Both the position numbers and the translations under genes were made by a program. A model generated the notes under the pieces. That model was not told the DNA's origin. It saw nothing but the letters and a program-made list of their open reading frames with translations, and ran no database searches. This document shows, piece after piece, positions 1 through 64,000 of a stretch of 64,000 nucleotides of DNA. How positions within the stretch are numbered: position 1 is the first letter of the stretch; every line of letters begins with the position of its first letter. The DNA is from Streptomyces armeniacus. Lineage in GTDB: Bacteria > Actinomycetota > Actinomycetes > Streptomycetales > Streptomycetaceae. The stretch covers positions 7,867,919 through 7,931,918 of the forward strand of contig NZ_CP031320.1 of assembly GCF_003355155.1 (NCBI RefSeq), written 5' to 3'.

Positions 1-34
1 AAAAAAAATAACGCCTACCAGGCGGGTAGTAGGC
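1..34. other. Non-homologous end sequence at window start
   Basis: These bases begin with a run of eight A and a small inverted repeat (GCCTAC/GTAGTAGGC). They do not continue the CvnD reading frame in the way family members do. This looks like a contig-end artefact rather than gene sequence. Confidence 0.5.
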
Positions 35-205
35 ATCGATCCCCGCCGAAGCCGACGTCATCACAGCCTCGGTACGCAGCGGATTGATCTCCGAAACCGC
101 GCCGACGAAGGTCGTCTTACCCACGCCGAACCCACCAGCCACCACGATCTTGGCCGAGGTCGTGGAGCGGGCAGCCGCACCGCCGCTAGAGCTTGCGAAG
201 TCCAC
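35..205 (-). CDS. cvnD: CvnD-type Ras-like GTPase, N-terminal fragment
   Basis: Small GTP-binding protein that forms the output part of an actinobacterial conservon, a membrane-associated complex that resembles a eukaryotic G-protein-coupled system. The first 57 codons are present, from a GTG start that overlaps the end of cvnC by 20 bases, the normal arrangement. The P-loop GGFGVGKTT and the family motif SEINPLRTEAVMTSASAGID are both visible. Homology stops right after that motif, where CvnD proteins normally run on for about 130 residues (switch regions and the nucleotide-base motif), so the gene is cut at the edge of the assembled piece, not naturally short. Confidence 0.9.
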
Positions 206-893
206 TGAGCACCCTTTCGAGCAGTGTCACGTCTGGCTGGCCGTCTGCGGTGGAGTCGTCACCACCAGGCTGGTGGATGGCAACGAGTCCGGCCTCGGCC
301 AGGTCGGCGACGAGGATCCGGGCGACGCCGAGCGGAATGGAGAGGAGCGCCGAGATTTCGGCGACCGACTTGATCTCGTAGCACAGCCGGCAGATCCGCT
401 GGTGCTCGGGCAACTGGCCCTGGAGCTGGGCGAATTCGGCGGTCGTGCTCACCAGTGCCTCGATGGCGAGCTGGTACCGAGGACGGGTCCGGCCACCCGT
501 CATGGCGTACGGCCGCACCAGCTGCTGCGGCTCGCCACGCCCGTCCGCGCCGCTCTGTTCGGAGCGGGGCCGGGGCGGCTGCACCGGCTGGATGCGGGAG
601 GGGGACGGCGGCGGCTGGTGGGGCCGGGACTGTGGGGCCGACTCCGGTGCGGAGTACGGCTGTTGACCGTGCTGGGGCTGCTGGGGCTGCCCCGGCTGGT
701 AGTGCTGCTGCGACGCATGCTGCCCACGCTGCCCCTGTGACTGCTGGGGCGGCTGTGGTTCCTGCTGCTGCCGCTGGCCGCGCACGTGATCGCTGGGCGC
801 GGAGGGGAAGTTGTAGCGCTTCAGGGGCGCGCCCTGAGACTGCTGCTGGTCACGGCCACTTCCGTACGACGGACCGCCTGGGGGCGTTGTCAC
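186..893 (-). CDS. cvnC: CvnC, DUF742 protein of the conservon
   Basis: Third conservon component (235 aa). The first half (about residues 1-120) is disordered and rich in Gln, Pro and Gly. The second half is a DUF742 domain with the usual opening LVRPYAMTGGRTRP and the conserved segment LCYEIKSVAEISALL, a winged-helix-like fold. In studied conservons CvnC binds the other members at the membrane. The stop overlaps the start of cvnD, which implies translational coupling. The N-terminal tail is longer and more Gln-rich than in many homologues. Confidence 0.93.
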   Translation of the reverse strand: MTTPPGGPSYGSGRDQQQSQGAPLKRYNFPSAPSDHVRGQRQQQEPQPPQQSQGQRGQHASQQHYQPGQPQQPQHGQQPYSAPESAPQSRPHQPPPSPSRIQPVQPPRPRSEQSGADGRGEPQQLVRPYAMTGGRTRPRYQLAIEALVSTTAEFAQLQGQLPEHQRICRLCYEIKSVAEISALLSIPLGVARILVADLAEAGLVAIHQPGGDDSTADGQPDVTLLERVLSGLRKL

Positions 894-1024
894 GTTTCCT
901 CCTCCGGCTCACGGACTAGCGGGCCACACTTGCCAGTTACTGCCTCAGCATCCGAGCGGACACCGCGTCCCCGCACCTTATGGGGCGGAGACGCAATGCG
1001 CACGGCCTGTCTCATGTTTGCGCA

Positions 1025-1438
1025 CTAGTTGAGAAGGCTTCCTTGAAGCTCGGCACGGAGGTCGGGGGTGAGGACGGTGCCCGCACGGTCGACGAGCAGC
1101 GCCATCTCGTACCCGACAAGACCGATATCGGCCTCCGGATGCGCGAGCACCGCCAGCGACGAACCGTCCGAGATGGACATGATGAAGAGGAACCCCCGCT
1201 CCATCTCCACCACCGTCTGGTTCACGAGGCCGCCCTCGAAGATCCGGGACGCGCCCGCGGTGAGCGAGGTCAGACCCGACGCGACAGCCGCCAGCTGGTC
1301 GGCCCGGTCGCGCGGGAAGCCCTCGGACAACGCGAGAAGCAGTCCGTCGGCGGAGACCACCACCGTGTGCGACACACCCGGGGTGTTGTCCACGAAGTTG
1401 GTGATCAACCAGTTCAGGTTCTGCGCCGCCTGGCTCAT
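1025..1438 (-). CDS. cvnB: CvnB, roadblock/LC7 domain protein
   Basis: Roadblock/LC7-fold protein of 137 aa, the conservon member likened to a GTPase regulator (MglB-like). The start used is the ATG before SQAAQNLNWLITNFV, because homologues begin there; a longer frame upstream runs into cvnA. Typical motifs seen are GVSHTVVVSADGLLLALSEG and FPRDRADQLAAVASGLTSL. It lies 10 bases after cvnA and 131 bases before cvnC in the same operon. Confidence 0.95.
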   Translation of the reverse strand: MSQAAQNLNWLITNFVDNTPGVSHTVVVSADGLLLALSEGFPRDRADQLAAVASGLTSLTAGASRIFEGGLVNQTVVEMERGFLFIMSISDGSSLAVLAHPEADIGLVGYEMALLVDRAGTVLTPDLRAELQGSLLN

Positions 1439-1448
1439 CGGGCTCACA

Positions 1449-4400
1449 CTAACGCTCCTGATCGTAGGTGCTGCCGGGGCCGTAGCCCTGTCGGTCATTC
1501 TGGGTGTTCTCGCCTGCGGTGCGTCCTCTGCGGATGCCGCGGTGCAGGTTACTCAGCCTGCCGCGGACGTCCTCCGGCGCCCTGGACACCTGCGGGCCGC
1601 CCTGCGCGTTCTGCTCCGCGGTGCCCTCGACCAGGTTGGCCTTGGGCACCCGCAGGGGGAGGCCGGACTCGGTGACGCCTCCGGCTTCCGGTTTGCGGAG
1701 CTTGCCGGCCCGGCTCCAGCGCTCGTCGTTGGCCGACTGCCAGCCGGGATCCGCGCCTTCCTGCGGGTCCTGCTGTGGCGCTGGGGACGCCTGGGACGAC
1801 CGTGACGGCAGCGCCAGTGGAGATTCCGCTTGCGGCTGCTGCGGTGCATCCGGACCCCCTTCGGGCTGCGGCCGTCCACGGTCCCGCTGCGGCAGACCCG
1901 CGCCGGTCGTAGAGCGGACACTGCTCGGAGAAGGGCCCAGACGGTCGAAGCCTACGCGGTCGCGGGCTGCGTCGGGAACGCTCTCGGCGGATTCCGCTTG
2001 TGGCTGTACGGGCTGCTGCGCACCGTACGAGGAGGGTTCCGGGGCGTAGTCGGACGGCGGGTAGCCGGGCTGCTGGTAGCCGTCCACGGGGGCGTACTGG
2101 CCCGTGTGCTCCGGGGAGTAGCCGCCGGGGTCGTAGCCGGGCTGGGGGGCGTAGCCCTGCCCGCCGTCGTAGCCGGGCTGGTTCTCGTAGCCGCTCTGGC
2201 CGTCGTGCCCCTGCCGGCCGTCGTACCCTGGCTGACCCTCGTAGCCCGGCTGGTAGCCGCCCTGGCCCGGGTCGTAGCCGTACGGCACCGGCTGCTGCCC
2301 CTGGCCGCCCGGCTGCGCCTGGCCCTGGCCGTAGTCCTGCTGCTGCGCCTCCAGCGCGGCACGGCGCTCGTCGCGCTGCAGGGAGCGGCCGACCGGGTCG
2401 AGCGCCGACGGGTCCGCCGAGGGGCCGTCAGGGCCGTAGCGGGAGTCGTCGAAGCCGAGGTCGGCCGCGGACGGCAGATGCCTGTCGAACACCGGCTGCG
2501 GGGCGCTCGGCTGGTCCGGGACGATCCGGGAGACGGTGAAGTCCTCCTCGGCCGGCTGCTCGTCGCCACCGCCGCCGCGCGTGATCGCCTGGGGCAGCAT
2601 GACCAGCGAGGTGGTGCCCGCCTGCTCGCCCGAGGGCCGGAGCTGGACGCGGATGCCGTGCCGGTTGGCCAGCCGGCCGACCACGAAGAGGCCCATGCGC
2701 TGCGAGATGGCGGCGTCCACGGTGGGCGGGTTCGCCAGCTTGTGGTTGATGTCCGCGAAGTCCTCCGCGGTCAGACCGATGCCCTTGTCGTGGATCTCGA
2801 TCATCACGCGGCCGTCCGGCAGCCGGGTCGCGGTGACCCGGACCTTGGTCTGCGGGGAGGAGAACGACGTGGCGTTCTCCAGCAGCTCGGCCAGCAGGTG
2901 GACGAGGTCGCTGACGGCCGCGCCGTGGATCTCGGTCTCCGGCACCCCGGACAGTTCGATGCGCTCGTAGTGCTCCACCTCGGAGGACGCGGCGCGGAGC
3001 GTGTCGACGAGCGGCACGGGCTGGTTCCAGCGGCGGCCCGGCTCCTCGCCCGCGAGGACCAGCAGGTTCTCGCCGTTGCGGCGCATACGCGTCGCGAGGT
3101 GGTCCATCCGGAAGAGGTGCTCCAGCTGCTCCGGGTCGGCCTCGTTGTTCTCGAGCTCCGAGACGAGGGCGAGCTGCCGCTCGATGAGGCCCTGGTTGCG
3201 GCTGGAGAGGTTGGTGAAGATCGCGCTGACGTTGCCGCGCAGCAGCGCCTGCTCGGCGGCGAGCCGTACGGCCTCGCGGTGCACCTGGTCGAAGGCGCGC
3301 GCGATCTCGCCTATCTCGTCCCGGCTGTCGATGGGGATCGGCTGCACGCGGGTGTCCACGCGGCCCGGCTCGGTCCGCGAGAGCTGGTCGACGAGCGACG
3401 GCAGCCGCGTCTGCGCCACGTCGAACGCCGCGCCGCGCAGCGTACGCATGCTGCGGCCCATCGAGCGGGCCATCATGCCGGCGATGAGGAACGCCACCAG
3501 CAGCGCGGTCAGTACGATGCCTGCGTTGATGAACGTGTCCCGGCGGGCGTCCGACGCGATCTGCTCCGTCTCCCGTACGGCGTCGCCCGCGAGCTTCTTC
3601 TCGACCACGCGGTACGCGTCGGCCTTCGCCGTCGACGTGCTGAACCACGTGCTGGGCGTGATGCCCTTCTCCTTCAGGGCGCTCTCGCCGGCGCCGCTGC
3701 TGATGGCCGTGACCATGTCCTTCAGCGGCGGCGGGGCGACGAACGGCTGGTCCTTGGACTCGGCCTCCGCCTTGGCCGCGGCGGCCTTCTCCTTGCCCTC
3801 CTGCTCGACCTTGCGCAGCTCGCTCTCCAGAAGCTCGACGTCCTGTGGGCGGCCGCCGGAGACGTACTCCGCGAGAGCGACGTTCTCCAGATACGCGTAC
3901 GAGGCGAAGGCCGTGAGCTGCTTCTTCTTCGCCGCCGCGGACGGGCCGGGCTCGAGGATGAGATGCATGCCGATGGCGCGCTGCAGCGACTCGGCCGACT
4001 TGGTGAGGGAGATGGCGTAGACGGTACGGCCGTAAGAGGTGACGTTGCCGGTGCCCAGCCCGAGTTCGTTGGCGAGCTCCATCAGCGGGTGCTGTACCTG
4101 GGTGTACGCCTCCTCCGTCTGCACGCCGCTCAGCCGGTCGCTGTACGCGGCCTGGCGGAGCGGTCCGAGTTTCGGCTCGGCCTTGCGGAGGGCGGCGAGG
4201 CGGCGCTTGAGGCCTTGCTTGTCCGGGATCTCTTCGGCGCGGGCGTCGAACCGCTTCTTGGCTTGGTCGGTGGCCGCGCGCAGCTCCTGCACCTGGGGGT
4301 TGTCGCGGTCGCCCGCGAGGAGCGGCTCGGCGCTCCGGTCCCGCTCGTTGAGCAGGGCCTGGCCGTAGTCGGCGGCGGACTCGACGAGTTCGGCGATGTG

Positions 4401-4676
4401 CCGGGCGTCCTCGGCGTCGTTCCAGGTGTCGATCGTGTGCTGGACGCGGAAGCCGCCGAAGACGAGGGCCACCAGAACGGGGATGAGCAGGATCGCGTTC
4501 AACCGGGTGGGTACGCGCCAGTTCCGCATCGCGAAGCGGCTGCCGCTGGTGGCGGGCGCCTCGGGCACGTCCACGCTTCCCGCAGCGGACCGGGCCGGCG
4601 GGGTGAAGTTCCCCCGCGACTCGTCGCGCGCCTGCGGGGCAGAGCCCGTCTTGCTACGCCTCACTCGACTACTCAC
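1449..4676 (-). CDS. cvnA: CvnA, nitrate/nitrite-sensor-type histidine kinase-like protein
   Basis: Membrane sensor that heads the conservon (1075 aa). A short cytoplasmic N-terminus is followed by a membrane helix (about 60-78), an extracytoplasmic NIT (nitrate/nitrite-sensing) domain (about 85-330), a second membrane helix (about 380-402), a HAMP-like linker and a HATPase_c domain. The HATPase carries an N-box (LAELLENATSFSSP, about 595) and a G1 box (DKGIGL, about 630). No clear phospho-accepting histidine box is visible, as is usual for CvnA. The last ~370 residues are disordered, with many PGY and QPGY repeats between about 790 and 880. It is the first gene of the operon. Confidence 0.94.
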   Translation of the reverse strand: MSSRVRRSKTGSAPQARDESRGNFTPPARSAAGSVDVPEAPATSGSRFAMRNWRVPTRLNAILLIPVLVALVFGGFRVQHTIDTWNDAEDARHIAELVESAADYGQALLNERDRSAEPLLAGDRDNPQVQELRAATDQAKKRFDARAEEIPDKQGLKRRLAALRKAEPKLGPLRQAAYSDRLSGVQTEEAYTQVQHPLMELANELGLGTGNVTSYGRTVYAISLTKSAESLQRAIGMHLILEPGPSAAAKKKQLTAFASYAYLENVALAEYVSGGRPQDVELLESELRKVEQEGKEKAAAAKAEAESKDQPFVAPPPLKDMVTAISSGAGESALKEKGITPSTWFSTSTAKADAYRVVEKKLAGDAVRETEQIASDARRDTFINAGIVLTALLVAFLIAGMMARSMGRSMRTLRGAAFDVAQTRLPSLVDQLSRTEPGRVDTRVQPIPIDSRDEIGEIARAFDQVHREAVRLAAEQALLRGNVSAIFTNLSSRNQGLIERQLALVSELENNEADPEQLEHLFRMDHLATRMRRNGENLLVLAGEEPGRRWNQPVPLVDTLRAASSEVEHYERIELSGVPETEIHGAAVSDLVHLLAELLENATSFSSPQTKVRVTATRLPDGRVMIEIHDKGIGLTAEDFADINHKLANPPTVDAAISQRMGLFVVGRLANRHGIRVQLRPSGEQAGTTSLVMLPQAITRGGGGDEQPAEEDFTVSRIVPDQPSAPQPVFDRHLPSAADLGFDDSRYGPDGPSADPSALDPVGRSLQRDERRAALEAQQQDYGQGQAQPGGQGQQPVPYGYDPGQGGYQPGYEGQPGYDGRQGHDGQSGYENQPGYDGGQGYAPQPGYDPGGYSPEHTGQYAPVDGYQQPGYPPSDYAPEPSSYGAQQPVQPQAESAESVPDAARDRVGFDRLGPSPSSVRSTTGAGLPQRDRGRPQPEGGPDAPQQPQAESPLALPSRSSQASPAPQQDPQEGADPGWQSANDERWSRAGKLRKPEAGGVTESGLPLRVPKANLVEGTAEQNAQGGPQVSRAPEDVRGRLSNLHRGIRRGRTAGENTQNDRQGYGPGSTYDQER

Positions 4677-5011
4677 CTCTCGGGCGCTCGGCTCCCGACT
4701 CAGGTCGGGTCGTGGCTACTGCTGAGTTCAGCGAATTTCAGCACGTCACTGCACCTCTTTCCAAACTCTTGACGGGACGGGGAATTTATGGCAGGCAAGA
4801 TTGAATAATTCGTGCATCACAGACGTAATCCGACAAAGCCCCATAGAATCGTGCGCAGAGTGAAGTGTTCCGCTCGCCGCCTGTGTTGGCCGTGTGTCAA
4901 TCACGTATCGAAATGTTATGAAGCCCTCATCATGGCATGACAAAGAAACCGGTGGCCCGCGGCAACTACCTTGCGGGCCCGGCTAGTTGTCAGACTGGTG
5001 GATCGACGGGG
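4677..5011. promoter_or_regulatory. Intergenic region upstream of cvnA, with a terminator
   Basis: No gene is seen here. The part nearest cvnA (about 4740-4930) is clearly less GC-rich than its surroundings, as expected of a promoter for the leftward conservon operon, but no -10/-35 pair can be assigned with certainty. A hairpin at 4954-4979 (stem GGCCCGC/GCGGGCC, 12-base loop) sits just after the upstream CvnD fragment and could end its transcript. Confidence 0.5.
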
Positions 5012-5183
5012 TCACTTGAGGCGGGCGAGCAGGGCGTGCTCGACCAACGTGATGAGTCCGCTCTTGGCGTCGGCGCGGTGCCTGGCGTCGGTGGTGATGA
5101 TCGGCGCGTCCGGCCCGATCTGCAACGCCTCCCGCACCTCCTCCGGCGTATACGGCTGATGCCCGTCAAAACCGTTCAACGCG
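5012..5183 (-). CDS. CvnD-type GTPase, C-terminal fragment of a second conservon
   Basis: The minus strand encodes the last 56 residues of a CvnD, including QPYTPEEVREALQIGP and DAPIITTDARHRADAKSGL, then a stop. The N-terminal ~140 residues are missing because the sequence turns into adapter-like DNA at about 5184. It lies directly upstream of cvnA in the same direction, so if the join-free part is real, two conservons were in tandem. It cannot be shown from here whether this is the missing end of the GTPase at 35-205 or a different gene. Confidence 0.85.
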
Positions 5184-5272
5184 ATCTGTTGTGTTTGCTA
5201 TCACGCTACCCCCTGCCCCCGCATACTCCCCCTATGCCCTCCCGGGCAGCTTCAGATGTGTATCAGAGCCAG
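5184..5272. other. Assembly join with Nextera adapter remnant
   Basis: The right part matches the Nextera read-1 adapter: CCCGGGCAGC followed by a mosaic end differing at two positions from AGATGTGTATAAGAGACAG. The left part is a weaker match to the reverse adapter. The CvnD fragment is cut on the left and the importer lipoprotein begins abruptly on the right. Translation through the mosaic end gives the known artefact peptide MCIRAS. Confidence 0.85.
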
Positions 5273-5294
5273 CCCCGCCCCCGGGGCGGCCGTC

Positions 5295-6611
5295 ATGGCT
5301 AGCCGCCCGCCGAGCAGACGCCGCGTCCTGGCCGCCGGCCTCGGGGCCGCGCTGGCGGGCGCCGGCACGGCGTCCTGCGCCAACGCCTCGGCCGGCCAGG
5401 GCGATCCCGACGGCCCCGTGACCCTCTGGTCGGCGCTGCGCGGCACCGACACCCTGGTCGCCAAGTGGAACGCGCTCCACCCCGACGACCCCGTCGACTT
5501 CTCCCCGATGACCTCCGGCCTCGCGGGCGGCAACGCCAAGCTCTCGAATGCCGCCCGCGCCGGGAACGCCCCCGACATCGTCACCATCGTCGACGCCGAC
5601 CTGCCGTCCTTCGCCATCGACGGCGTATGCGCCGACGTCACCGGCCTCGTCACCCCGCGGCTGCGCACCCAACTCGGCCCGCAGGCCTGGACGAACGGCA
5701 AGCTGGACGGCCGGGTCTACGGCATCCCGCTGGACCTGGGCCCGATGCTGCTCGCGTACCGCAAGGACCTCCTCGAAGCGCACCGCGTCGGAATCCCCGT
5801 CACCTGGGAGGAGTTCCACGACGCGGCGCGCACCCTCAGGCGGCGCTCCGGCACCCACCTGACGTCCTTCCACCCCAACGCGTACAACGTGCTCGCCGGT
5901 CACGCCATGCAGAGCGGCGGCCAGTGGTTCGCCACCGAGGGCGACACCTGGGTGGTCGACTTCCTCGACGAGCCCACCCGCCGCGTCGCGGACTACTGGC
6001 AGCGGCTGATCGACGAGGACCTGCTGTTCGTCGCCCCCGGCAGCAGCCAGGAGTGGATGTCCGCGCTCGCCCGCGGCCGGGTGGCCGCCCACCTCGTGGG
6101 GCCGTGGGGGCTGGCGGCCCTGGCCTCCTCGGTGCCCGGCACCTCCGGCCGCTGGCGCGTGGCCCCGCTGCCGCAGTGGGGTACGGGCAGGCCCGTCGTG
6201 GGCACCGACGGCGTCTCCCTGCACGCCATCACCGCCGACAGCCCGCGCAAGAAGCGCGCGATGCGGTTCCTGGAGTGGATGTCGACGACACCCGAGGCGA
6301 TCACCGCCCGGCTCTCCGGCGGCCGTTCGAGCCTCTTCCCCGCCGCGCCGGCCCAGGTCGAGGCCGCCTCGCGCCAGTTCGAGACCGACTTCTACGGCGG
6401 CCAGGACCTGTACGCCCTCGTGACCGAGCAGGCCCGCCTGCTGCGTACGGGCTGGACGTGGGGGCCGCGCATGCAGGCCACCGCGACGTCCCTGCACAAC
6501 GGCCTGGCCCGGCTCTCGTACGGCACGAAGGTCACCGAGGCGCTGCGCTCGGCGCAGGCCGAGACCCTGCCCGACATGCGCAGTCTGGGCCTGAAGGTGA
6601 GGCAGGCATGA
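5295..6611 (+). CDS. ABC sugar transporter substrate-binding lipoprotein
   Basis: Extracellular solute-binding protein of family 1 (438 aa), probably delivering a sugar to the two permeases that follow. The N-terminus has a twin-arginine-like SRRRVLAAG stretch and a lipobox ending TASC, so it should be membrane-anchored. The mature protein has the family layout, with VTLWSALRGTDTLVAKWNA at the start and a conserved region around GPWGLAAL. The ATG used is the first after the adapter join and is only 22 bases from it; a slightly longer natural N-terminus cannot be excluded. Its stop overlaps the next start (ATGA). The substrate cannot be told from sequence. Confidence 0.9.
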   Translation: MASRPPSRRRVLAAGLGAALAGAGTASCANASAGQGDPDGPVTLWSALRGTDTLVAKWNALHPDDPVDFSPMTSGLAGGNAKLSNAARAGNAPDIVTIVDADLPSFAIDGVCADVTGLVTPRLRTQLGPQAWTNGKLDGRVYGIPLDLGPMLLAYRKDLLEAHRVGIPVTWEEFHDAARTLRRRSGTHLTSFHPNAYNVLAGHAMQSGGQWFATEGDTWVVDFLDEPTRRVADYWQRLIDEDLLFVAPGSSQEWMSALARGRVAAHLVGPWGLAALASSVPGTSGRWRVAPLPQWGTGRPVVGTDGVSLHAITADSPRKKRAMRFLEWMSTTPEAITARLSGGRSSLFPAAPAQVEAASRQFETDFYGGQDLYALVTEQARLLRTGWTWGPRMQATATSLHNGLARLSYGTKVTEALRSAQAETLPDMRSLGLKVRQA

Positions 6612-7600
6612 GTACGTCCACCGTCCCCGGCACCTCCCGTACGGTGCACACGCCGCCGAGTGCCCGCGCGTCCACCCCCGCGACCCGTCCGCGCCGTCCG
6701 CAGCGGCAGGCGGTGGGCGTCCTCCTCGGGCCGTTCGTCCTGCTGCTGGTCGCCGTGTTCCTGGTGCCGGTGCTGTACGCGGTCCGGCTGAGCTTCTTCT
6801 CCGAGACCCACACCGGCCTCGGCTTCGGCAAGGCCCGTACCGCCTTCGTGGGCCTGCGCAACTACGCGGCCGTGCTGTCCGATCCGAGCTTCGTGAGCGG
6901 TGTCGGCGTCACGCTCCTGTACGCGCTCGTGTTCCTGCCCCTTGTCCTGACCGGCGGGCTCGCCCTGGCCCTGCTGTTCGACTCGGGGCTGGTGCGCGCG
7001 CGACAGCTCAGCCAGACCGTGCTGTTCGTGCCGCACGCCGTGCCCGGCATCATCGCCACCGTCATCTGGCTGTACCTCTACACGCCCGGTCTCTCGCCCG
7101 TACTCGACGTGCTGGGCAGCGCCGATGTCACCGTGAACTTCCTCGGCCTGCGCATGCTGATCCCGTCCCTGGTGAACATCGCGCTGTGGAGCGGGCTCGG
7201 CTACACCGCCGTCATCTTCTTCGCCGCCCTGCGCGCGATTCCCCGCGAGCTCGTCGAGGCCGCCGAGGTCGACGGCGCGGGCCCGGTGCGCACGGCGCTG
7301 ACGATCAAGGTGCCGATGATCCGCGGCACCCTGTCCACCGTGGCCATCTTCACCACGATCGCCGCGCTCCAGCTGTTCACCGAACCGATGCTGCTGAGCC
7401 GGGCCACGCCGCTGGTCGGCCCCCGCTTCACGCCGAACATGTACATCTTCGACGCGGCCTTCACCCGTAACAACTACGGCCTGGCGTCCGCCGCCTCCGT
7501 CCTGCTGCTGCTCGTGTGCTGCGCCCTGTCCTACGTGGTGACGCGGGGCACGGCCCGCACCGGCCGGCGCGTCCCCGACTCCAGGAAGGCCCGCCCGTGA
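6608..7600 (+). CDS. ABC sugar transporter permease, MalF type
   Basis: Inner-membrane permease (330 aa) of a carbohydrate importer (CUT1 class). About six membrane helices follow a disordered Thr/Pro-rich N-terminus of ~35 residues. The cytoplasmic EAA loop that contacts the ATPase reads EAAEVDGAGPVRTALTIKVP. The start overlaps the binding-protein stop and its own stop overlaps the next GTG, so the three genes are co-translated. No ATPase gene is present, as is common in Streptomyces, where a shared MsiK-type ATPase serves many importers. Confidence 0.93.
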   Translation: MSTSTVPGTSRTVHTPPSARASTPATRPRRPQRQAVGVLLGPFVLLLVAVFLVPVLYAVRLSFFSETHTGLGFGKARTAFVGLRNYAAVLSDPSFVSGVGVTLLYALVFLPLVLTGGLALALLFDSGLVRARQLSQTVLFVPHAVPGIIATVIWLYLYTPGLSPVLDVLGSADVTVNFLGLRMLIPSLVNIALWSGLGYTAVIFFAALRAIPRELVEAAEVDGAGPVRTALTIKVPMIRGTLSTVAIFTTIAALQLFTEPMLLSRATPLVGPRFTPNMYIFDAAFTRNNYGLASAASVLLLLVCCALSYVVTRGTARTGRRVPDSRKARP

Positions 7601-8490
7601 CCACCTCCACCGCTCCGGTCCCCACCGCCTCCGTGCCCGCCCGCTCCGTGCCCGCGGGCCGCCCGTACGGCCGCGTCGTCGCGAACGTCGTGGTCGGCGT
7701 CAGCGTGCTGTACGCGCTGCTGCCCCTGCTGTGGCTGCTGCTCGCCTCCACGGTGGACGCGGAGGCGCTGTTCGCCTCGGACTTCTTCGGCCCGTCGAAC
7801 TTCGCCCTCGTGGACAACATCCGCACTCTGCTCGCCCAGGACGACGGCGCGTACCTCACCTGGTACGGCAACAGCCTGCTGTACGCGGTGGGCGGCGCCG
7901 CCGTCGGCGCCCTGGTCAGCACCGCCGCCGGGTACGTCTTCGACAAGTTCGAATTCGCGGGCAAGGGCGCCCTGTTCGCCCTCATCCTGATCTCGGTGAT
8001 GGTGCCGGCCACGGTGCTCGCCCTGCCGCTGTACCTGCTCGCCTCCGACCTGGGACTGGCGAACACGGTCTGGTCGGTGCTGATCCCGGTGCTGTTCAAC
8101 CCCTTCGGCGTGTATCTGGCGCGGATGTTCTCCGCCTCCTATGTCCCCGACGAGGTGCTGGAGGCCGCCCGCGTCGACGGCGCGAACGAGCTGCGCAGCT
8201 TCCTGTCCGTGGGGCTGCGGATGCTCGCCCCCGGCTACGTGACCATCTTCCTGTTCCAGCTGACGGCGATCTGGAACAACTTCTTCCTCCCCCTGGTGAT
8301 GCTCAACGACGCCTCCCTCTACCCGCTCAGCCTCGGCCTCTACAGCTGGAACTCCACCGCGCCCATCAACCCCGACTACTACCCGCTGATGGTCATCGGC
8401 TCCCTGCTGGCACTGCTGCCGCTGGTCATCGCGTTCCTGCTGCTCCAGCGCCACTGGCGCTCCGGCCTCACCGCGGGCAGCGTGAAGTGA
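7597..8490 (+). CDS. ABC sugar transporter permease, MalG type
   Basis: Second permease (297 aa) of the importer. The GTG start overlaps the previous stop (GTGA). It has the expected membrane helices and an EAA loop beginning EAARVDGANELRSFLSVGLR. The C-terminal LLLQRHWRSGLTAGSVK is typical of MalG-like subunits. Just after the stop, the bases GTGAAGTGACGCCGTACGG occur twice (overlapping the last codons, then again to about 8521), a small tandem duplication of the gene end. Confidence 0.93.
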   Translation: MTTSTAPVPTASVPARSVPAGRPYGRVVANVVVGVSVLYALLPLLWLLLASTVDAEALFASDFFGPSNFALVDNIRTLLAQDDGAYLTWYGNSLLYAVGGAAVGALVSTAAGYVFDKFEFAGKGALFALILISVMVPATVLALPLYLLASDLGLANTVWSVLIPVLFNPFGVYLARMFSASYVPDEVLEAARVDGANELRSFLSVGLRMLAPGYVTIFLFQLTAIWNNFFLPLVMLNDASLYPLSLGLYSWNSTAPINPDYYPLMVIGSLLALLPLVIAFLLLQRHWRSGLTAGSVK

Positions 8491-8606
8491 CGCCGTACGG
8501 TGCGTGAAGTGACGCCGTACGGAGGCGGATTCGGCTGCTCATGCGGTTCGCGCCCGAGGACTCGTCCGAGCCAACGAGCCGACCGCGGGGGAGCGTCGCA
8601 CTGGCA

Positions 8607-9995: not shown

Positions 9996-10281
9996 GACGC
10001 CGTGATCGCCCGCATCGTACGGAGGGGCGAGGAGGCGTCCCGTACGAGGGCGCGCCCGCAGTTGTTCAGCGGGAAGGTCGAGGAGGGGTACTCGCTGGGC
10101 ATGGTCGTCGCGACCCTCGCGGTCGTCCTGGTCCCCCTCGCCTTCGGGGACGGGCCGAGGTCCGCGCTGCTGCGCGCGATGACCTTCATGATCGTGGCCT
10201 CGCCCTGCGCGGTCGTGCTGGCGACGATGCCGCCGCTGCTGTCGGCCATCGCGAACGCCGGCCGGCACGGCGTCCTCGCCC
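9996..10281 (+). pseudogene. P1B-type heavy-metal ATPase, internal fragment
   Basis: About 95 codons of a metal-transporting P-type ATPase, open at both ends. Seen are DAVIARIVRRGEEASRTRA, a segment like the M3 region (YSLGMVVATLAVVLVP), and the signature TFMIVASPCAVVLATMPPLL, whose SPC is the metal-binding CPx-type motif of helix M4, followed by AIANAGRHGVL. The phosphorylation motif DKTGT that should follow is absent because the frame runs into an IS fragment. This is most likely a misplaced assembly scrap, not a gene remnant in place. Confidence 0.8.
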
Positions 10282-10341
10282 CACGTGGTCGTCGATGAAC
10301 ACGTACAGTGCCGCCAGAAGGGCGTCCAGGTTTGTCTTCAC
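10282..10341 (-). mobile_element. IS982-like transposase, first ~20 codons
   Basis: Read on the minus strand from a GTG at 10341, the sequence gives KTNLDALLAALYVFIDDHV, which resembles the N-terminus of actinobacterial IS982-family transposases. The frame is lost where the P-type ATPase fragment begins. The bases to about 10400 may hold the end of the element, but no terminal repeat is recognised. Confidence 0.5.
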
Positions 10342-10448
10342 ACACTGACCAACGGGCGCCCTTCGCCATGGTCGCGACCAGCACCGACATCGGACTCATT
10401 CATCTAGCGTGTGGGCGGCAGCACCGCACAGCAACCTGGAGCGCACGC

Positions 10449-52252: not shown

Positions 52253-52786
52253 TCACGGGAGCATCCAGTCCAGGACGCCGGACTGCAGGTAGACCAGCAC
52301 GCACATGCATAGCAGCAGGAGCAGGCTCCACTTGATGGCGCCACGGAACAGCTCCGCCTCGCGGCCCACCATGCCGACCGCCGTGGCGGCGATCGTGAGG
52401 TTCTGCGGACTGATCATCTTGCCCACGACGCCGCCGGAGGTGTTGGCGGCGACGAGCAGCGTCGAGTCGAGGTCCGCCTTCTCGGCGGCGGCCTGCTGCA
52501 GCGTGGCGAAGAGGGCGTTGGCGGAGGTGTCGGAGCCGGTCACGGCGGTGCCCAGCCAGCCGAGTACGGGGGACAGGAACGCGAACGCCGCGCCCGTACC
52601 GGCGATCCACTGCCCGATGGTGAGCGTCTGCCCGGACAGGTTCATCACGTACGCGAGGGCGAGCACGGCGGCGACGGTCAGCAGCGCCCAGCGCAGCTTG
52701 CCGAGGGTGGCGGCGAACTCGCGGGCGGCGGCGGCCGGGGACACCCGGTAGGCGGCCGCGACGGGTGTGAGATCGGGTTCGTACAT
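52253..52786 (-). pseudogene. lctP: L-lactate permease with large internal deletion
   Basis: Only 177 codons where LctP has about 550. The first ~10 residues (MYEPDLTPVA) look like a true LctP start, lying just downstream of two LldR-type operators. From AAYRVSPAAAAREF on, the sequence is the true C-terminal third: LALAYVMNLSGQ, GAAFAFLSPVLGWLGTAVTG, SDTSANALFATLQ, NTSGGVVGKMISPQNL. About 1.1 kb of the middle is lacking at about 52755. The 10 helices it should have are absent, so the product could not transport. Either a real deletion or missing sequence. Confidence 0.85.
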
Positions 52787-53900: not shown

Positions 53901-56297
53901 TCAGCGCCCCCGCAGCGGCGTCGACGGTGGTGCGGCGTCCTCTCCCGTGCCCCAGTCCGACGGCTCCGTGCCCGTCTCGAACGACAGGTCGCCGCGCCGG
54001 ATGTCGTCCGTCGTGATCCACGTCCGCGGCAGGTCGTCGCCGCCGAGCGAGGCGGAGCGGATGTACCGCTTCCCCTCACCCGCGCCGTCCGCGTCCACCG
54101 TGAACCCGCCGCGCGGGTACCACTTGCGGTCCAGCGTCAGCGTCACCTTGTCGAAGGCCGGCGTGGACAGCCCCCAGGTGTCGGTCCCGGGGAAGACCGG
54201 GAAGATGCCCATGCCGGTGAGCACCATCCACGACGACATGGTGCCGAGGTCGTCGTTGCCGGTCACGCCGTCGGGCCCGTCGGTGAAGAGGGTGAGCGCG
54301 GCGTGCACGACGTCCGTCGTCTTCCACGGCTCCCCCGTCGACAGGTACGTGTACGGGGCGATGAGGTCGGGCTCGTTCTGCGGGTTGTACTTGTCCGCGT
54401 TGTAGTAGTCATACGGCCCGTTGACCCACACCTCGCGTGCCGTCTTCTCCGGGTCGGCCAGCAGCTGCTCGTACGCGAAGAACGAGTCCAGCCGCTTGCC
54501 CGTGGCCTCGCGCCCGCCGACGAGCGACATCATCCCCGGCTGGTCCTGCGGCGTCAGCCACATGTACTGCCAGGCCGTGCCCTCGTGGAAGCCCTCGCTG
54601 CGGGCCGGGTCCTCGGGCCCGGTGAACGCGCCCTCGCCGTCCCGCGGCCGGAAGAAGCCGGTGCTCTCGTCGAATACGGTGCGGTAGTTGCGGGAGCGTT
54701 CGGCGTACCGCGCCGCGTCCTCCTCGTGCCCCAGGTCGCGCGCCATCTCGGCGAGCGCGGCGTCGGCGAGTGCGTACTCGAGGGTCGCGGAGGCGCCGTG
54801 GTGGAAATCGGAGTCGCCGGGCTTCTCCTTCTCGCGGTCCGGCAGGAACGGCACGTAACCGTCCTTCAGATACTCCGCGTTGCCCATCCGGCCGACGTAC
54901 GGGGAGTCCGCGGGCGGCACCCCGTCCGCGTTCTTCTTCAGCACCCGGTACGCGTCCTCCTCGTGGCCCTTCAGCAGGCCCTGCCGGTAGGCGTTGGTGA
55001 GGAAGGGGGTCACCGGGTCGCCGGTCATGATGTTCGTCTCGACGGTGCCGTAGCCCCACTTGGGCAGCCAGCCGCCCTCCTCGTCGACGCGGAGCAGGGA
55101 CAGCGCCATGTCACGGGACTCGTCCGGCGCGAGCAGCGCGAGAAGCTGCGCCTGGGTGCGGTACGTGTCCCACAGCGACCAGTTCTGGTAGTACGTGAAC
55201 CCCTCCGACCGGTGGATCTTCTGGTCCCAGCCGGTGTAGCGGCCGTCCACGTCCTCGCCGGTGTTGGGGTGCAGCAGGGCGCGGTAGAGGGAGGAGTAGA
55301 AGACCCGGCGGCGCTCCTCGCTGCCGCCCTCCGCCCGTACCTGCCCGAGCCGCCGCTCCCACTCGGCACGCGCCGCGTCCCGGGTGGCGTCGAACGAACG
55401 GGTGCCCTCCGCCGCCATGTTGCGTGCGGCGCCCTTCGCGTCCACGTACGACAGCGAGGTCACGGCCTCCACGTCGCGGTCGCCGTCGCGGGTGTCGAAG
55501 CGGGCGTACGCGCCGCGCCTGCCGGCCCCGGACGAGGTGTCGCCGCCGTCGGTCACCTCGTCGCCGCTCCACGTGCCGTGCCCGTCGAAGGGCCGGTCGA
55601 AGCGGGTGAGGGTGTGGACCGTGTACTCCTTCTCCGTGTCCTGGCAGAAGCCGCGTCCGGTGATGGCGGTGGCGATCGTACGGTCGTCCAGGACGCGTAC
55701 CTCGGACTCCGTCACCTTGTGCAGGGCCTGGCCGGAGTTGAGGAGGACGTTGGCCTTGCCGGTCTCCGGGAAGGTGTAGCGCTGGTGGCCGGTGCGCTGG
55801 GTGGCGGTCAACTCGGCGGTGGTGCCGCCGTAGTCGTCGAACGCGACCTTGTACGAGCCGGGGGACGCGCTCTCGTTGTCGTGGCTGAAGGTGGCGGCGT
55901 ACTTCTCGTTGTCGGTGCTGGTGATGTCGCCGGTGGTGGGCATCACCGGCAGGTCGCCGCCGAGGGCGCAGCCGACGCCGGAGAGGTGGACGGAGGAGAA
56001 GCCGCGGATGGTGTTCTGGTCCCAGTTGTAGCCGGTGTTGTGGCCGGTGTCGGGGGAGAGCTGCACCATGCCGAAGGGGACGGCGGCGCCGGGGAAGGTG
56101 TTGCCCTCGTTCTGCGTGCCGATGAACGGATTGACCAGGTCGGTGAGTTGCCCGTCCTTCGCGGGGGCCGGGGCGTCGGCGGAGGCGGCCTGGGGCGCGC
56201 CGAGCAGGCCCGCGCACAGGGCGGCCGCGGCGAGGGCGGCGAGGCGTGGGGTGTCTCTGCCGACGCCCCGGCCCCCGCGATTGGCCCCTATACCCAT
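53901..56297 (-). CDS. Secreted GH92 alpha-mannosidase
   Basis: 798 aa from ATG 56297. Signal peptide with an RG-rich n-region and the core LAALAAAALCAGLLGAPQAASADA. GH92 N-domain from VNPFIGTQNEGNTFPGAAVPFGMVQLSPDTG; catalytic domain with LWDTYRTQ, NIMTGDPVTPFLTNAY, and GNDDLGTMSSWMVLTGMGIFPV (the family signature). It probably removes terminal mannose from glycans outside the cell. Only ~44 bases of upstream sequence remain before an adapter, so the natural promoter is cut. Confidence 0.95.
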   Translation of the reverse strand: MGIGANRGGRGVGRDTPRLAALAAAALCAGLLGAPQAASADAPAPAKDGQLTDLVNPFIGTQNEGNTFPGAAVPFGMVQLSPDTGHNTGYNWDQNTIRGFSSVHLSGVGCALGGDLPVMPTTGDITSTDNEKYAATFSHDNESASPGSYKVAFDDYGGTTAELTATQRTGHQRYTFPETGKANVLLNSGQALHKVTESEVRVLDDRTIATAITGRGFCQDTEKEYTVHTLTRFDRPFDGHGTWSGDEVTDGGDTSSGAGRRGAYARFDTRDGDRDVEAVTSLSYVDAKGAARNMAAEGTRSFDATRDAARAEWERRLGQVRAEGGSEERRRVFYSSLYRALLHPNTGEDVDGRYTGWDQKIHRSEGFTYYQNWSLWDTYRTQAQLLALLAPDESRDMALSLLRVDEEGGWLPKWGYGTVETNIMTGDPVTPFLTNAYRQGLLKGHEEDAYRVLKKNADGVPPADSPYVGRMGNAEYLKDGYVPFLPDREKEKPGDSDFHHGASATLEYALADAALAEMARDLGHEEDAARYAERSRNYRTVFDESTGFFRPRDGEGAFTGPEDPARSEGFHEGTAWQYMWLTPQDQPGMMSLVGGREATGKRLDSFFAYEQLLADPEKTAREVWVNGPYDYYNADKYNPQNEPDLIAPYTYLSTGEPWKTTDVVHAALTLFTDGPDGVTGNDDLGTMSSWMVLTGMGIFPVFPGTDTWGLSTPAFDKVTLTLDRKWYPRGGFTVDADGAGEGKRYIRSASLGGDDLPRTWITTDDIRRGDLSFETGTEPSDWGTGEDAAPPSTPLRGR

Positions 56298-56340
56298 CGG
56301 ACCCCGCCGACGCCGGCCTAGGTGTACGCTCACGCGCTAG

Positions 56341-56464
56341 CTGTCCCTTGCACACAGATGCTTTTGACGTCTCACCGCTGAGATTTTCTCTGTTAATGTA
56401 GCCGCGAACGCCGAAATCTACTCGTCAGGGTTCGACGGCAGCGTCAGGTTGGTATAAGGGACAG
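56341..56464. other. Assembly join with Nextera adapters
   Basis: Left: CTGTCCCTTGCACACAGATG, a mosaic end with errors. Right: GCGAACGCCGAAATCTAC (P5 tail GCGACCACCGAGATCTAC), about 8 index-like bases, then TTCGACGGCAGCGTCAGG and TTGGTATAAGGGACAG. The RHS tip starts in frame immediately after. Confidence 0.92.
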
Positions 56465-60303: not shown

Positions 60304-60607
60304 CAGGTCAATGCACACGGTCTCGGCGAAGCCCAAGTTCGCCCTGACCGAGGAGAGTTCGCCCCCGTGATCGATGCCTCGGAGCCGAACACCGCCGCCG
60401 GATCCGCTTGCCGGTGCCAGGCCGCGGCGTCCTCGGAAGTGGCAGAGCCCCTGGCCCTGGCGAGGCTGGCGGGCCCAGGGTGACGGCGGCGTCGGCGGGG
60501 GTGGGGGTAACCACAGGTGGGACCCTTCTCCCTATACCACTCTGACGCTTCCGACGAGAGGTTCGTGTGTGATGCTCGTCGACACGTGATCACGGCAACT
60601 CACGCGG
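60304..60607. other. Unresolved segment before the malate synthase scrap
   Basis: No supported gene on either strand. A short plus frame (about 60368-60484) ends in TGA without recognisable content. A join must lie near 60608, where malate synthase homology begins abruptly. Confidence 0.4.
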
Positions 60608-60808
60608 AGCCTCGTCGCCCAGCTCGGCGCGGATCGCGGCGAGATCCTCGGCGGCGACCTTCCGTACGAGCTCGGGTGTGACCGTCTCGCCGGTGTCCAG
60701 GACGACGCCCGCGTTCACCCACTGCCAGATCTGCGCGCGCGAGATCCCCGCCGTGGCCGCGTCCCCCATCAGCCCTAAGATGGCGACGGCCCCCATGCCG
60801 CGCAAGGC
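60608..60808 (-). pseudogene. Malate synthase, internal fragment near the C-terminus
   Basis: About 67 codons: MGAVAILGLMGDAATAGISR and AQIWQWVNAGVVLDTGETVT, then RKVAAEDLAAIRAELGDEA. GLMEDAATAEISR(S/A)QIWQW is the near-invariant C-terminal signature of malate synthase (glyoxylate shunt); here two positions differ (GD for ED, AG for AE), the first of them the conserved catalytic-region acid. Homology ends on both sides, with no start and a premature stop at 60590. Most likely an assembly scrap. Confidence 0.85.
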
Positions 60809-60877
60809 CGGGGACAGTTCCGCTTCCCGTACGCCGCACACCCACCGCAGCAACCGCACCTCCGGAGGTGATCGCGG

Positions 60878-62458
60878 GTGACGACCCCTTCCCACAGCGT
60901 CGCGCCGCGCCGCACGTACATGATCGGCCGCGCGCGGCCGAACGCCATCGTCGGAAAGAACCGGGAGACCGGCGAGATCGCGTTGATCATCACCGGCGCC
61001 TTCTTCGGCATGATGAGCGGCCTGCTGATCCCTGTGCTGTCGGTACGCATCCCCGCCCTGGTCGGCTTCCCGATGCTCGCGCTGGCGGCGGTGTACGTGC
61101 CGTACCGCGGGCGGACGCTCTACAAGTGGTTCGAGATCGACCGCAGTTACCGGCGCATGGTGCGGCGCGGCGAGGCGTACCGCTCCGGTGTGCAGGAGGC
61201 GGGCACCCGGCTGGACGGCCGCGAGGTGGAGGTCGGGCCGCCGCCCGGCGTCGGCCGTATCAACTGGCTGTCGGCGCCGTTCGGCCCGGACGAGATCGCC
61301 GTCCTGCTGCACGCGGACCGCCGTACGGTCACCGCGGCCATCGAGATCGAGGGCCCCGGCGTCGGGCTGCGCGACAGCGAGGACCAGGAGGCGCTGGTCG
61401 ACCGGTTCGGCACGCTGCTCAAGCACGTCGCGAACGGCGACGGCTTCGTCACCCGGCTGCAGATCCTCGCCCGTACGCTGCCCGCCGACCCCGACGCGCA
61501 CGCGAAGGACATCGCGCAGCGCGGCGACGACCGGGCGGCGCCGTGGCTGCAGGAGTCGTACGAGCAGCTGCAGTCGATGGTCTCCACGTCCAGCGAGCAG
61601 CACCGCGCGTACCTCGTGGCCTGCATGCACTACGGCCGCGAGCTCGCCGCCGAGGGCGCGGCCGTCGCCAAGGCGGCGCGCGCTTCCGCGGGCGGCGTGC
61701 CGGGGATGCGGGGCGGCCGCGCCCGCAAGATGACCAAGGACGAGGGCCTGGCGGTCATCATGGCCCGCGAACTCACCGACATCTGCGCACGTTTGGCGGA
61801 GGCCGACATCCGGGTACGCCAGCCGCTGGGACAGGCGCGCATGGGGTCGCTCATCCACTCCATGTACGACCCGGACCACCCCATCGACCACATCCAGGCG
61901 ATGACGAAGCGGAACGCCTGGCCGGCGGAGCTGGACGCGCTGGAACCGACCTATCTGAAGGCGAAGACCAGGGAGTCGGTGACCCGCGCCCCCTGGTGCC
62001 ACTCGACGGCGTGGGTCAAGGAGTGGCCGATGACCCCGGTGGGCGTGAACTTCCTCGCCCCGCTGCTCGTCCACACCCCCGACGTGATCCGCACGGTCGC
62101 CGTGGTGATGGACCTGGAGCCGACGGAGCTGGCCATCGAGCGGATGCTGACCGAGAAGACCAACGACGAGGCGGAAGCGAGCCGTCAGGCCAAGATGAAC
62201 CGTACGGTCGACCCCCGCGACATCGCCGCGCACGGCCGCGTCGACCAGCGCGGCGAGGACCTGGCGAGCGGGGCGGCCGGGGTCAACCTGGTGGGTTACA
62301 TCACGGTGTCCTCGCGCAGCCCGGAGGCGTTGGCCAGGGACAAGCGGACGATCCGCGCGTCCGCGGGCAAGTCGTATCTGAAACTGGAGTGGTGCGACCG
62401 CGAGCACCACCGGGCGTTCGTGAACACCCTGCCGTTCGCCACCGGCATCCGGCGCTGA
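60878..62458 (+). CDS. PrgI/SCO6880-family transfer protein
   Basis: Protein of 526 aa. Near the N-terminus two membrane helices (EIALIITGAFFGMMSGLLIPVL and ALVGFPMLALAAVYVPY) give a VirB3/PrgI-like part; the large remainder is soluble and like the N-domain of VirB4 ATPases. It is 18 bases upstream of the ATPase gene. In actinobacterial integrative and conjugative elements these two form the core of a type IV secretion-like channel. Function inferred from family and context. Confidence 0.88.
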   Translation: MTTPSHSVAPRRTYMIGRARPNAIVGKNRETGEIALIITGAFFGMMSGLLIPVLSVRIPALVGFPMLALAAVYVPYRGRTLYKWFEIDRSYRRMVRRGEAYRSGVQEAGTRLDGREVEVGPPPGVGRINWLSAPFGPDEIAVLLHADRRTVTAAIEIEGPGVGLRDSEDQEALVDRFGTLLKHVANGDGFVTRLQILARTLPADPDAHAKDIAQRGDDRAAPWLQESYEQLQSMVSTSSEQHRAYLVACMHYGRELAAEGAAVAKAARASAGGVPGMRGGRARKMTKDEGLAVIMARELTDICARLAEADIRVRQPLGQARMGSLIHSMYDPDHPIDHIQAMTKRNAWPAELDALEPTYLKAKTRESVTRAPWCHSTAWVKEWPMTPVGVNFLAPLLVHTPDVIRTVAVVMDLEPTELAIERMLTEKTNDEAEASRQAKMNRTVDPRDIAAHGRVDQRGEDLASGAAGVNLVGYITVSSRSPEALARDKRTIRASAGKSYLKLEWCDREHHRAFVNTLPFATGIRR

Positions 62459-62476
62459 GAGAGGAGGAGGACGGGC

Positions 62477-63922
62477 ATGTCAGGCGCACGAGATCCACTG
62501 ACCGCGGTCACCGACGCGTTCACCAGCTTCCTCTTCGGCAAGACGGAGACGACACGCCTGCCGGTACGCACCTCCACGGGCCAGGCCCAGGCGGTGTATC
62601 TGCCGACGGCGGCCCCCGGCCTCGGCGACTCCGGCGTGATCATCGGCCGCGAGGTCTACAGCGGCAAGGGCTACATCTACGACCCCTTCCAGCTCTACGG
62701 CCAGCAACTCCCCGCCCCCCACTGGCTGGTGCTCGGCGAGTCCGGCAACGGCAAGTCGGCGCTGGAGAAGACGTACGTGCTGCGGCAGCTCCGGTTCCGC
62801 GACCGGCAGGTCGTGGTGCTGGACGCGCAGGGCGAGGACGGCGTCGGCGAATGGAACCTGATCGCCGAGGAGATGGGCATCACGCCCATCCGGCTCGACC
62901 CCACCGCCGCCCTCGACCAGGGCATACGTCTCAACCCGCTGGACCCGGCGATCACCACCACCGGCCAGCTCGCGCTGCTCCGCACGATCATCGAAGTGGC
63001 GATGGGGCACGGCCTGGACGAGCGTTCCGGTTTCGCGCTGAAGGTGGCCCACGCGTACGTCAACGCCACCATCGCCGACCGGCAGCCCGTCCTCACCGAC
63101 ATCGTCGAGCAACTCCGCCATCCGGAACCGGAGTCGGCGCAGGCCATGAACGTCGCGCTGGAGGACGTACGCGCCTGGGGCCTCGACGTCGCCCTGGTGC
63201 TGGACCGGCTGGTCGACGGTGACCTGCGCGGCATGTTCGACGGGCCGACGACCGTAGGCATCGACCTGGACGCGCCGCTGATCGTCTTCGACCTCTCGCA
63301 CATCGACCGGAACTCGATCGCGATGCCCATCCTGATGGCCATCGTGGGCGTCTGGCTGGAGCACACCTGGATCCGCCCCGACCGCCGGAAGCGCATCTTC
63401 CTGGTGGAGGAGGCGTGGCACATCATCAACAGCCCGTTCGTCGCGCAGCTGTTCCAGCGGCTGCTGAAGTTCGGGCGGCGGCTGGGCCTTTCGTTCGTGG
63501 CGGTGGTCCACCACCTGTCGGACGTGGTCGACGGCGCGGCGGCGCGCGAGGCCGCCGCGATCCTCAAGATGGCCTCGACCAGAACCATCTACGCCCAGAA
63601 AGCCGACGAGGCGAGAGCCACCGGCAAGGTGCTGGGCCTGCCGCGCTGGGCCGTCGAGATCATCCCGACTCTCTCGCCGGGCATAGCGGTGTGGGACGTG
63701 AACGGCAACGTGCAGGTCGTCAAGCACCTCATCACCGAGGCCGAACGGCCGCTCGTCTTCACCGACCGCGCGATGACCGAGGCGGCCCCCGCAAGGCAGC
63801 CGGAAGCACCCTCGCTCGACGCGGAACTGGAGGCGGAAACGGAGGCGCGCGCCATGGCCATGGAGCACGTGTCGGGACCACACGGGGAACCTGACGGCTC
63901 CTCCGCGTCCACGGTGGCCTGA
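62477..63922 (+). CDS. VirB4-like conjugation ATPase
   Basis: ATPase of 481 aa. Walker A GESGNGKS at 87-94, Walker B RIFLVEEAWHII at about 305-315, followed by LKFGRRLGLSFVAVVHHLSDV and LGLPRWAVEIIPTLSPGIAVW, the arrangement of VirB4/TraC-type motors. GAGAGGAGGAGG precedes the ATG. Powers transfer or channel assembly together with the upstream protein. The C-terminal 50 residues are Ala/Glu-rich. Confidence 0.92.
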   Translation: MSGARDPLTAVTDAFTSFLFGKTETTRLPVRTSTGQAQAVYLPTAAPGLGDSGVIIGREVYSGKGYIYDPFQLYGQQLPAPHWLVLGESGNGKSALEKTYVLRQLRFRDRQVVVLDAQGEDGVGEWNLIAEEMGITPIRLDPTAALDQGIRLNPLDPAITTTGQLALLRTIIEVAMGHGLDERSGFALKVAHAYVNATIADRQPVLTDIVEQLRHPEPESAQAMNVALEDVRAWGLDVALVLDRLVDGDLRGMFDGPTTVGIDLDAPLIVFDLSHIDRNSIAMPILMAIVGVWLEHTWIRPDRRKRIFLVEEAWHIINSPFVAQLFQRLLKFGRRLGLSFVAVVHHLSDVVDGAAAREAAAILKMASTRTIYAQKADEARATGKVLGLPRWAVEIIPTLSPGIAVWDVNGNVQVVKHLITEAERPLVFTDRAMTEAAPARQPEAPSLDAELEAETEARAMAMEHVSGPHGEPDGSSASTVA

Positions 63923-63924
63923 CC

Positions 63925-64000
63925 GTGCCGCCGTACGAGCAGCGGGGCAGGCCCGGAGGCTCCGGCGGAGGACGCGGGCGGTACGGGCGGGACGGACGGG
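63925..64000 (+). CDS. Start of next transfer-operon gene (partial)
   Basis: A GTG 2 bases after the VirB4 stop opens a frame VPPYEQRGRPGGSGGGRGRY that runs off the window. Gly/Arg-rich, as many transfer-operon N-termini are. Too short to identify. Confidence 0.4.
   Translation, partial: MPPYEQRGRPGGSGGGRGRYGRDGR

Follow-up and report, generated by a model that had tools for sequence, protein, structure and literature searches.

Introduction

The closest described systems to the DNA considered here are products of sequencing and assembly and not of evolution: adapter read-through in Illumina Nextera libraries, contigs of de Bruijn assemblers, and pseudomolecules made by concatenating contigs. 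The stretch analysed (the window, 64,000 bases) covers positions 7867919-7931918 of the 8,083,249-base genome of Streptomyces armeniacus (G000), which is held as one contig with a completeness of 100 and a contamination of 0.31. The window looks like an artefact, some fifteen pieces of a short-read assembly that are unrelated to one another and were joined by length, with adapter left over at many of the seams, and not like real chromosome. The whole 8.08-Mb single-contig record behaves like concatenated short-read contigs, and the same artefact signs run throughout the 1.6 Mb that were fetched, the contiguous right arm of G000. The nearest relatives of the GH92 gene in the window are from Streptomyces, and the gene content of the window is consistent with this. 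No account of this record or of its fingerprint turned up in a literature search, as far as the opening parts of the abstracts tell.

It is, in our judgement, very nearly certain that the record is a pseudo-chromosome, a length-sorted and spacer-free paste of de Bruijn contigs (k = 127) from an untrimmed Nextera library. The observed basis consists of adapters with a recurring index, contig ends formed by 127-mers, falling piece lengths, copied error branches, and runs of N having the lengths of adapter parts. The assembler, the platform, the short inserts, the masking agent and the pasting step itself are deduced from these signs.

Adapter remnants

The 19-bp Nextera mosaic end was used as the query. 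At up to three mismatches the window contains six copies, where 0.00 are expected, and the whole genome contains 92, none of them exact; the pattern read backwards does not occur at all. An error-aware model of 33 positions, for which 60 sites beyond the window served as training set and the reversed 1.6 Mb (both strands) as control, detected 11 adapter tails at seven seams of the window, with scores of 17.2-43.9 against a control maximum of 15.4. A chance origin of the matches was ruled out by the zero expectation, the lack of reversed hits and the scores above control. Over the 1.6 Mb the model gave 91 sites above the control maximum, training places among them, and plain matching gave 59 sites at up to three mismatches; the counts of 59 and 91 replace earlier best-match counts, which were too low. 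At up to four mismatches there were 74 sites, and none in the reversed control.

The order inside the sites is mosaic end, read-1 adapter, 8-base index, P5 sequence and then homopolymer noise or N. Out of the 74 sites, 44 continue as read-1-type and 9 as read-2-type. The 44 read-1-type sites have the index consensus AGGCTTAG, in which the fifth base is T in 17 and C in 16, followed by GTGTAGATCTCGGTGGTCGCCGTA; the read-2 index is noisy. We take AGGCTTAG to be the reverse complement of Nextera index S508. The adapter sequences and their lengths are also our assumption, and the read-1 side recurs as a consensus in the 44 sites. Of 197 changes counted in the tails, 113 are to C in the read direction.

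The initial reading was that the sites are native short inverted-repeat elements with Tn5-like ends, which would agree with inverted pairs of the 19-mer 50-200 bp apart, none of them exact, and with their number in the genome. It was discarded on the adapter, index and P5 sequence inside the sites, and we now consider it virtually impossible. The interiors consist of read-1 or read-2 adapter, the recurring index and P5/P7, and then turn into poly-A/T or N. The adapter-like 19-mer was found in 17 of the 100 genomes of the relatives search (G000 included), with none in the other 83, and 55 of the 57 reverse-strand matches among those listed for multi-contig relatives start in the first 63 bases of a contig. 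A conserved non-adapter interior, together with copies in relatives off contig ends, as expected of a Tn5-like insertion sequence (IS) or miniature inverted-repeat element, was not found, and the sites combine the mosaic end with the adapter, 8-base index and P5/P7 continuation of a Nextera remnant.

Exact repeats of 127 bases

Maximal exact repeats were counted in the 1.6-Mb right arm and in sampled blocks of G000. There were 12 of 97-106 bases, 14 of 107-116, 16 of 117-126, 118 of 127-131 and none of 132-141, and 71 of them measure exactly 127 bases. Such a pile-up is expected from the contig ends that a de Bruijn assembler working at k = 127 leaves, and the excess lies at the ends of pieces. 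Six seams of the window were placed by 127-mers, at 33/34, 5186/5187, 10280/10281, 29690/29691, 34246/34247 and 60608/60609; of the two edges of each shared 127-mer, the seam was taken as the one beyond which an adapter or noise, an unrelated gene or a further 127-mer lies. A 127-mer stands on both sides at 10280/10281 and at 34246/34247. Four window ends (10154-10280, 10281-10407, 34247-34373 and 60609-60735) match elsewhere over exactly 127 bases.

The same-genus genomes searched numbered 61, 14 of them single-contig, and adapters occurred in two of these 14, G000 and G012, both of which have the 127-bp excess. G012 (one contig, 9,034,319 bases) contains 162 adapter-like 19-mers and, in the 400 kb fetched, 15 exact repeats of 127-131 bases and none of 120-126 or 132-151, which is a small count. 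Its index is different at the one read-1 site inspected.

Falling piece lengths

The pieces of the window become shorter along the record, from 5153 and 5094 bp through about 5.05 kb and 4556 bp to about 4.2 kb. In the last 34 kb of the record the spacings between doubly supported boundaries are 11142, 1260, 5767, 1085, 4929, 866, 859, 1635, 815, 755, 1690, 492, 1328, 379, 371, 338, 311 and 307 bases; the unsplit spacings decrease throughout, and each of the others can be divided into at least two pieces of intermediate length. A split-count test compared the number of extra boundaries needed for non-increasing lengths with that in 20,000 shuffles, at most eight pieces being allowed per gap. 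The record end needs 13 extra boundaries; two shuffles needed 39 and the other 19,998 of 20,000 were infeasible. The window order, taken with ten marked seams (52057 was not used), needs 4, a value reached by 46 of 20,000 shuffles. The order of the pieces follows size and carries no biological information, as the shuffles and, at one seam, the relatives indicate. Falling lengths have been demonstrated in G000 only.

The length order forecast two unlisted seams before inspection, at about 47442-47613 and at 51966-52137. One of the two forecasts was borne out, by a degraded adapter at 52057-52089 (score 17.2). Ranges derived by hand from the split-count seams allow two further seams at 38690-38802 and 24971-25134. 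There are 11 marked seams in the window, hence at least 12 pieces, and adding the three unmarked seams inferred from length order would give 15. The parts of the window are as follows (scores are those of the error-aware model).

1..33, end of the contig before, with poly-A (1-8) and noise following a run of 59 N
34..5186, contig 1, 5153 bp; 34-160 is an exact 127/128-mer that recurs at 6669232-6669358 (-) and 8080089-8080216, and 5059-5186 recurs at 8079723-8079850
5187..5272 (-), read-1-type adapter tail at the left end of contig 2; score 36.3 at 5240-5272
5187..10280, contig 2, 5094 bp, right end chimeric; seams 5186/5187 and 10280/10281
9992..10280 (+), probable P-type ATPase error branch, 289 bp; last 127 bases an exact copy
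10281..10407, 127-mer opening contig 3, common to 8071200-8071326 (-); a 96% copy at 4302957
15263..15393, adapter seam of contigs 3 and 4, read-1 tail on the left and read-2 tail on the right; scores 43.9 and 27.1
20234..20381, adapter seam of contigs 4 and 5; scores 32.9 and 39.6
24959..25134, probable seam of contigs 5 and 6; the length order allows 24971-25134, and neither a 127-mer nor an adapter is present; the GH92 gene ceases to resemble its relatives here
29564..29690, 127-mer closing contig 6, within a repeat that has four further places in the genome, one beside an IS481-type transposase gene
29691..34246 (+), contig 7, 4556 bp, part of a modular polyketide synthase (PKS), from after a ketosynthase (KS) to inside the next KS
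34120-34246, end of contig 7, common to 6968055-6968181 (-)
34247..38798, contig 8; first 127 bases exact from 5030088 and no further; right end unmarked, allowed 38690-38802
43115..43296, adapter seam of contigs 9 and 10, two read-1 tails; scores 27.5 and 42.8
47442..47834, forecast seam of contigs 10 and 11, by length order only; no 127-mer in 47300-52400 and no adapter
52057..52137 (+), seam of contigs 11 and 12, degraded adapter; score 17.2 at 52057-52089
56281..56464, adapter seam of contigs 12 and 13; scores 24.0 and 39.9
60525..60608 (+), adapter tail closing contig 13; score 27.5
60609..60804 (-), probable malate-synthase error branch, 196 bp; first 127 bases an exact copy
60609..64000, contig 14, left end chimeric, continuing to an adapter seam beyond the window at 64775-64842
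5240(-), 15263(+), 15361(-), 20234(+), 20349(-), 43115(+), 43264(-), 52057(+), 56281(+), 56432(-) and 60525(+), starts of the scored adapter tails

An earlier note on this sequence had proposed a mosaic of at least a dozen misjoined pieces, and the number of marked seams bears this out. Its count of five adapter remnants was too low, the 11 tails lying at seven seams. Seven of its ten break points are directly demonstrated: those near 35, 10282, 29690, 34247 and 60608 agree within two bases with seams placed by 127-mers, 9995 corresponds to the chimeric junction 9991/9992, and 60808 to the end of the malate-synthase fragment at 60804. Two others are unmarked. The point 38798 falls inside the range allowed by length, has no adapter and is not among the repeats listed, and the point 24959, where the relatives of the GH92 gene begin matching, lies 12 bases outside its range and has neither a 127-mer nor an adapter; both are likely seams. 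The tenth, 52755, is of another kind (see below). Seams were added at 5186/5187, 15263-15393, 20234-20381, 43115-43296, about 47.4-47.8 kb (unmarked), 52057 and 56281-56464, several of which are probably the adapter remnants that the note had seen. Its statement that synteny, operons and distances across these points are not biological stands, since the piece lengths fall along the record.

Streptomyces chromosome arms are variable, and the window might be supposed to be a truly rearranged, pseudogene-rich arm with IS-driven breaks, orphan Rhs tips and decayed genes. Several breaks do fall in repeats, PKS or Rhs genes, which recombine naturally too. However, adapters and exact 127-bp overlaps stand at the breaks, the lengths fall, and fragments copied from elsewhere carry errors on one side only, so that we regard such an arm as highly improbable.

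Several observations weigh against the pasted-contig reading. The case is made from assembled sequence only. Neither adapter continuation is present at 21 of the 74 mosaic-end sites, and two of the listed reverse matches lie away from contig starts (G064:C403:112-130 and G020:C14:53076-53094, the latter with three mismatches). The 127-bp excess was examined in two genomes, G000 and G012, both of which carry adapters. The length test is modest in the window (46 of 20,000), its list of boundaries was chosen by the analysts, and splitting of long gaps was allowed; an earlier, stricter chain, in which no boundary was allowed to be missing, stopped at 8028221, and the split-count test took its place. 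The adapter at the 52-kb seam, noted by eye, was detected only by the error-aware model and missed by simple alignment, which gave a weak score of 13, reached by 7.4% of the reversed-control windows. The forecast 47-kb seam has no adapter or 127-mer in 47442-47613 or in the range 47612-47834, to which it was revised once the 52-kb seam was included, and altogether three model seams (24971-25134, 38690-38802 and 47.4-47.8 kb) are without a direct marker.

Runs of N

The 1.6-Mb arm contains 14 runs of N of at least five bases, four of which are 47 bases long and one 51. On the adapter lengths that we assume, 47 is the read-2 remainder (15+8+24) and 51 the read-1 remainder (14+8+29). Each of these five runs lies directly against a mosaic end. 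On the opposite side four are bordered by poly-A or poly-T, and the fifth, at 7593336, by genomic-looking sequence. A 59-base run finishes one base before window position 1 (...CCGCCTCTT, N59, AAAAAAAA), and we infer that it is the masked remainder of a read-1 adapter. Clean adapters were probably masked with N and error-rich ones survived, which would explain the absence of exact mosaic-end copies. Three large N runs, at G000:7956667-7959699 (3033), 7990915-7995248 (4334) and 8032086-8033413 (1328), are a different matter; two of the three have the same left flank, presumably ribosomal RNA.

Chimeric contig ends

Two fragments shorter than 300 bases were found, where the earlier note had spoken of several; they are ends of chimeric contigs and not separate contigs, and both are copies, with errors, from genes that are intact elsewhere in the record. 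The 289-bp fragment at 9992-10280 (+) is identical at 274 of 289 positions to G000:975354-975642, which lies within an open 688-aa P-type ATPase frame in which E1-E2 ATPase and Hydrolase domains were identified; the fragment agrees exactly over its last 127 bases, and the mismatches are confined further left. The 196-bp fragment at 60609-60804 (-) is identical at 191 of 196 positions to the malate-synthase gene (open 539-aa frame, domain at G000:43873-44610 (-)), with the first 127 bases exact and the mismatches confined further right. Toward the bad end of both fragments the changes, judged by eye, are mostly to C, as in the adapter tails. One-sided errors of this form have the shape expected of a bad-tailed read branching off the true path, and the fragments are probably spurious branches that carried a contig end into an unrelated gene.

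These ends bear on a further explanation, a correctly ordered scaffold whose gaps were filled by bad reads, on which the runs of N and the adapters might represent the filled gaps. An order based on linkage leaves the falling lengths unexplained, however, the two contig ends copy genes about 7 and 8 Mb distant, and in two relatives (G030 and G026) the malate-synthase fragment and the sequence right of 60804 map to different contigs; we therefore give the scaffold very little probability. To the right of that junction, 60872-63922 holds a gene without a Pfam match and then an AAA_10/TraG-like ATPase gene, and DNA from about 60826 to 63781 matches the same two relatives in one piece.

The lactate permease locus at 52755

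The break reported near 52755 is a real discontinuity, and not a seam of the kind described above, both sides belonging to one locus in two relatives. The lactate permease gene at 52253..52786 (-) lacks about 1.2 kb at 52758-52762: in G030 and G026 the sequences flanking 52755 are found at a single locus, separated by 1.2 kb with their order kept, and the alignments of the two flanks share 4-5 bases. The permease frame of the window has 185 aa, compared with 548-654 aa for the frames that hold the 28 matches found at E 1e-50 or better across 27 further genomes of the genus. Judged by these alignments, 52755 is an internal loss inside one collinear locus, whether real or made in assembly, and not a join of unrelated genes. 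That it is a genuine deletion of the strain, and not a collapse by the assembler, is a tentative reading which we place just short of an even balance. The collinearity with both relatives, the short overlap and the lack of a 127-mer or adapter speak for a deletion; the many assembly errors of the record and the full-length permease frames in the 27 other genomes speak against it. In the region 52241-53060 the permease gene stands beside a GntR/FCD regulator gene, and two TTGGTCAGACCATT sites occur in or near the stretch between them, which we take to be putative operators, probably of the LldR type.

Genes at and near the seams

An Rhs-like part at 16055-20305 has a T7SS-signal domain and RHS repeats (Pfam), and its frame, 16061-20305, runs into an adapter and stops there. 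Rhs-like tips were recognised by eye at 38640-38798 and 56465-57000, and all three Rhs-like parts are cut at or near a seam. Two GH92 genes are present, at 22632-25223 and 53901-56336, and in both the N-terminal end is close to a seam. Most relatives of the first gene are about 31-38% identical to the second. Synteny around GH92 was uninformative: in a comparison of 19 window frames with 47 loci, matches beyond the two GH92 genes were limited to 30-35% identity, in two common families and at three loci. Long frames cross seams at 33571-36333 (a KS fragment running into a VWA-like protein), 29568-33557 (a repeat running into the PKS) and 8607-10268. A gene for a thaumatin-family protein lies at 51031-51963, and 43314-43376 is a short repeat with many partial copies of 28-58 bp in the genome.

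Discussion

The following sequence of events may account for the record. An untrimmed Nextera library with short inserts would have been assembled by a de Bruijn assembler at k = 127, presumably of the SPAdes type. Contigs would have ended at repeats, where contigs have one 127-mer in common, or at dead ends made of read-through adapter, the homopolymer after the adapter, and low-quality read tails. The contigs would then have been output from longest to shortest and joined head to tail without spacers, and clean adapters would later have been masked with N while error-rich ones were kept.

Gene neighbourhoods, operons, biosynthetic clusters, fusions and distances taken from the G000 record are unsafe, and the artificial long frames that cross seams could be annotated as fusion proteins. 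Filters on contig number, completeness and contamination would admit the record at the values given above. What makes the case noteworthy is that an artefact passes as a complete genome and can still be recognised from its sequence. It is highly probable that public genome collections contain length-sorted, spacer-free concatenations of contigs which are taken for single-contig species representatives of 100% completeness, and that these can be tested for by combining three signs, an excess of k-length repeats, runs of N as long as the adapter remainders and falling piece lengths. This three-part fingerprint needs no reads and is applicable to any genome collection.

Compared with known systems, the sites resemble Illumina Nextera (Tn5 tagmentation) read-through in the order of their parts: the mosaic end comes first, then the read-1 or read-2 adapter, the 8-base index and P5/P7, and a homopolymer tail comes last. 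They differ in that sequencing errors, most of them changes to C, have degraded the copies here, which is presumably why an adapter screen missed them. As in de Bruijn contigs at k = 127, contig ends have exactly k bases in common, whereas here the contigs are pasted into one sequence and not listed separately. The record is like a concatenated-contig pseudomolecule in being a single record with no real order, and unlike it in that the pieces are ordered by length and no N spacer stands at the 127-mer seams, so that nothing flags them.

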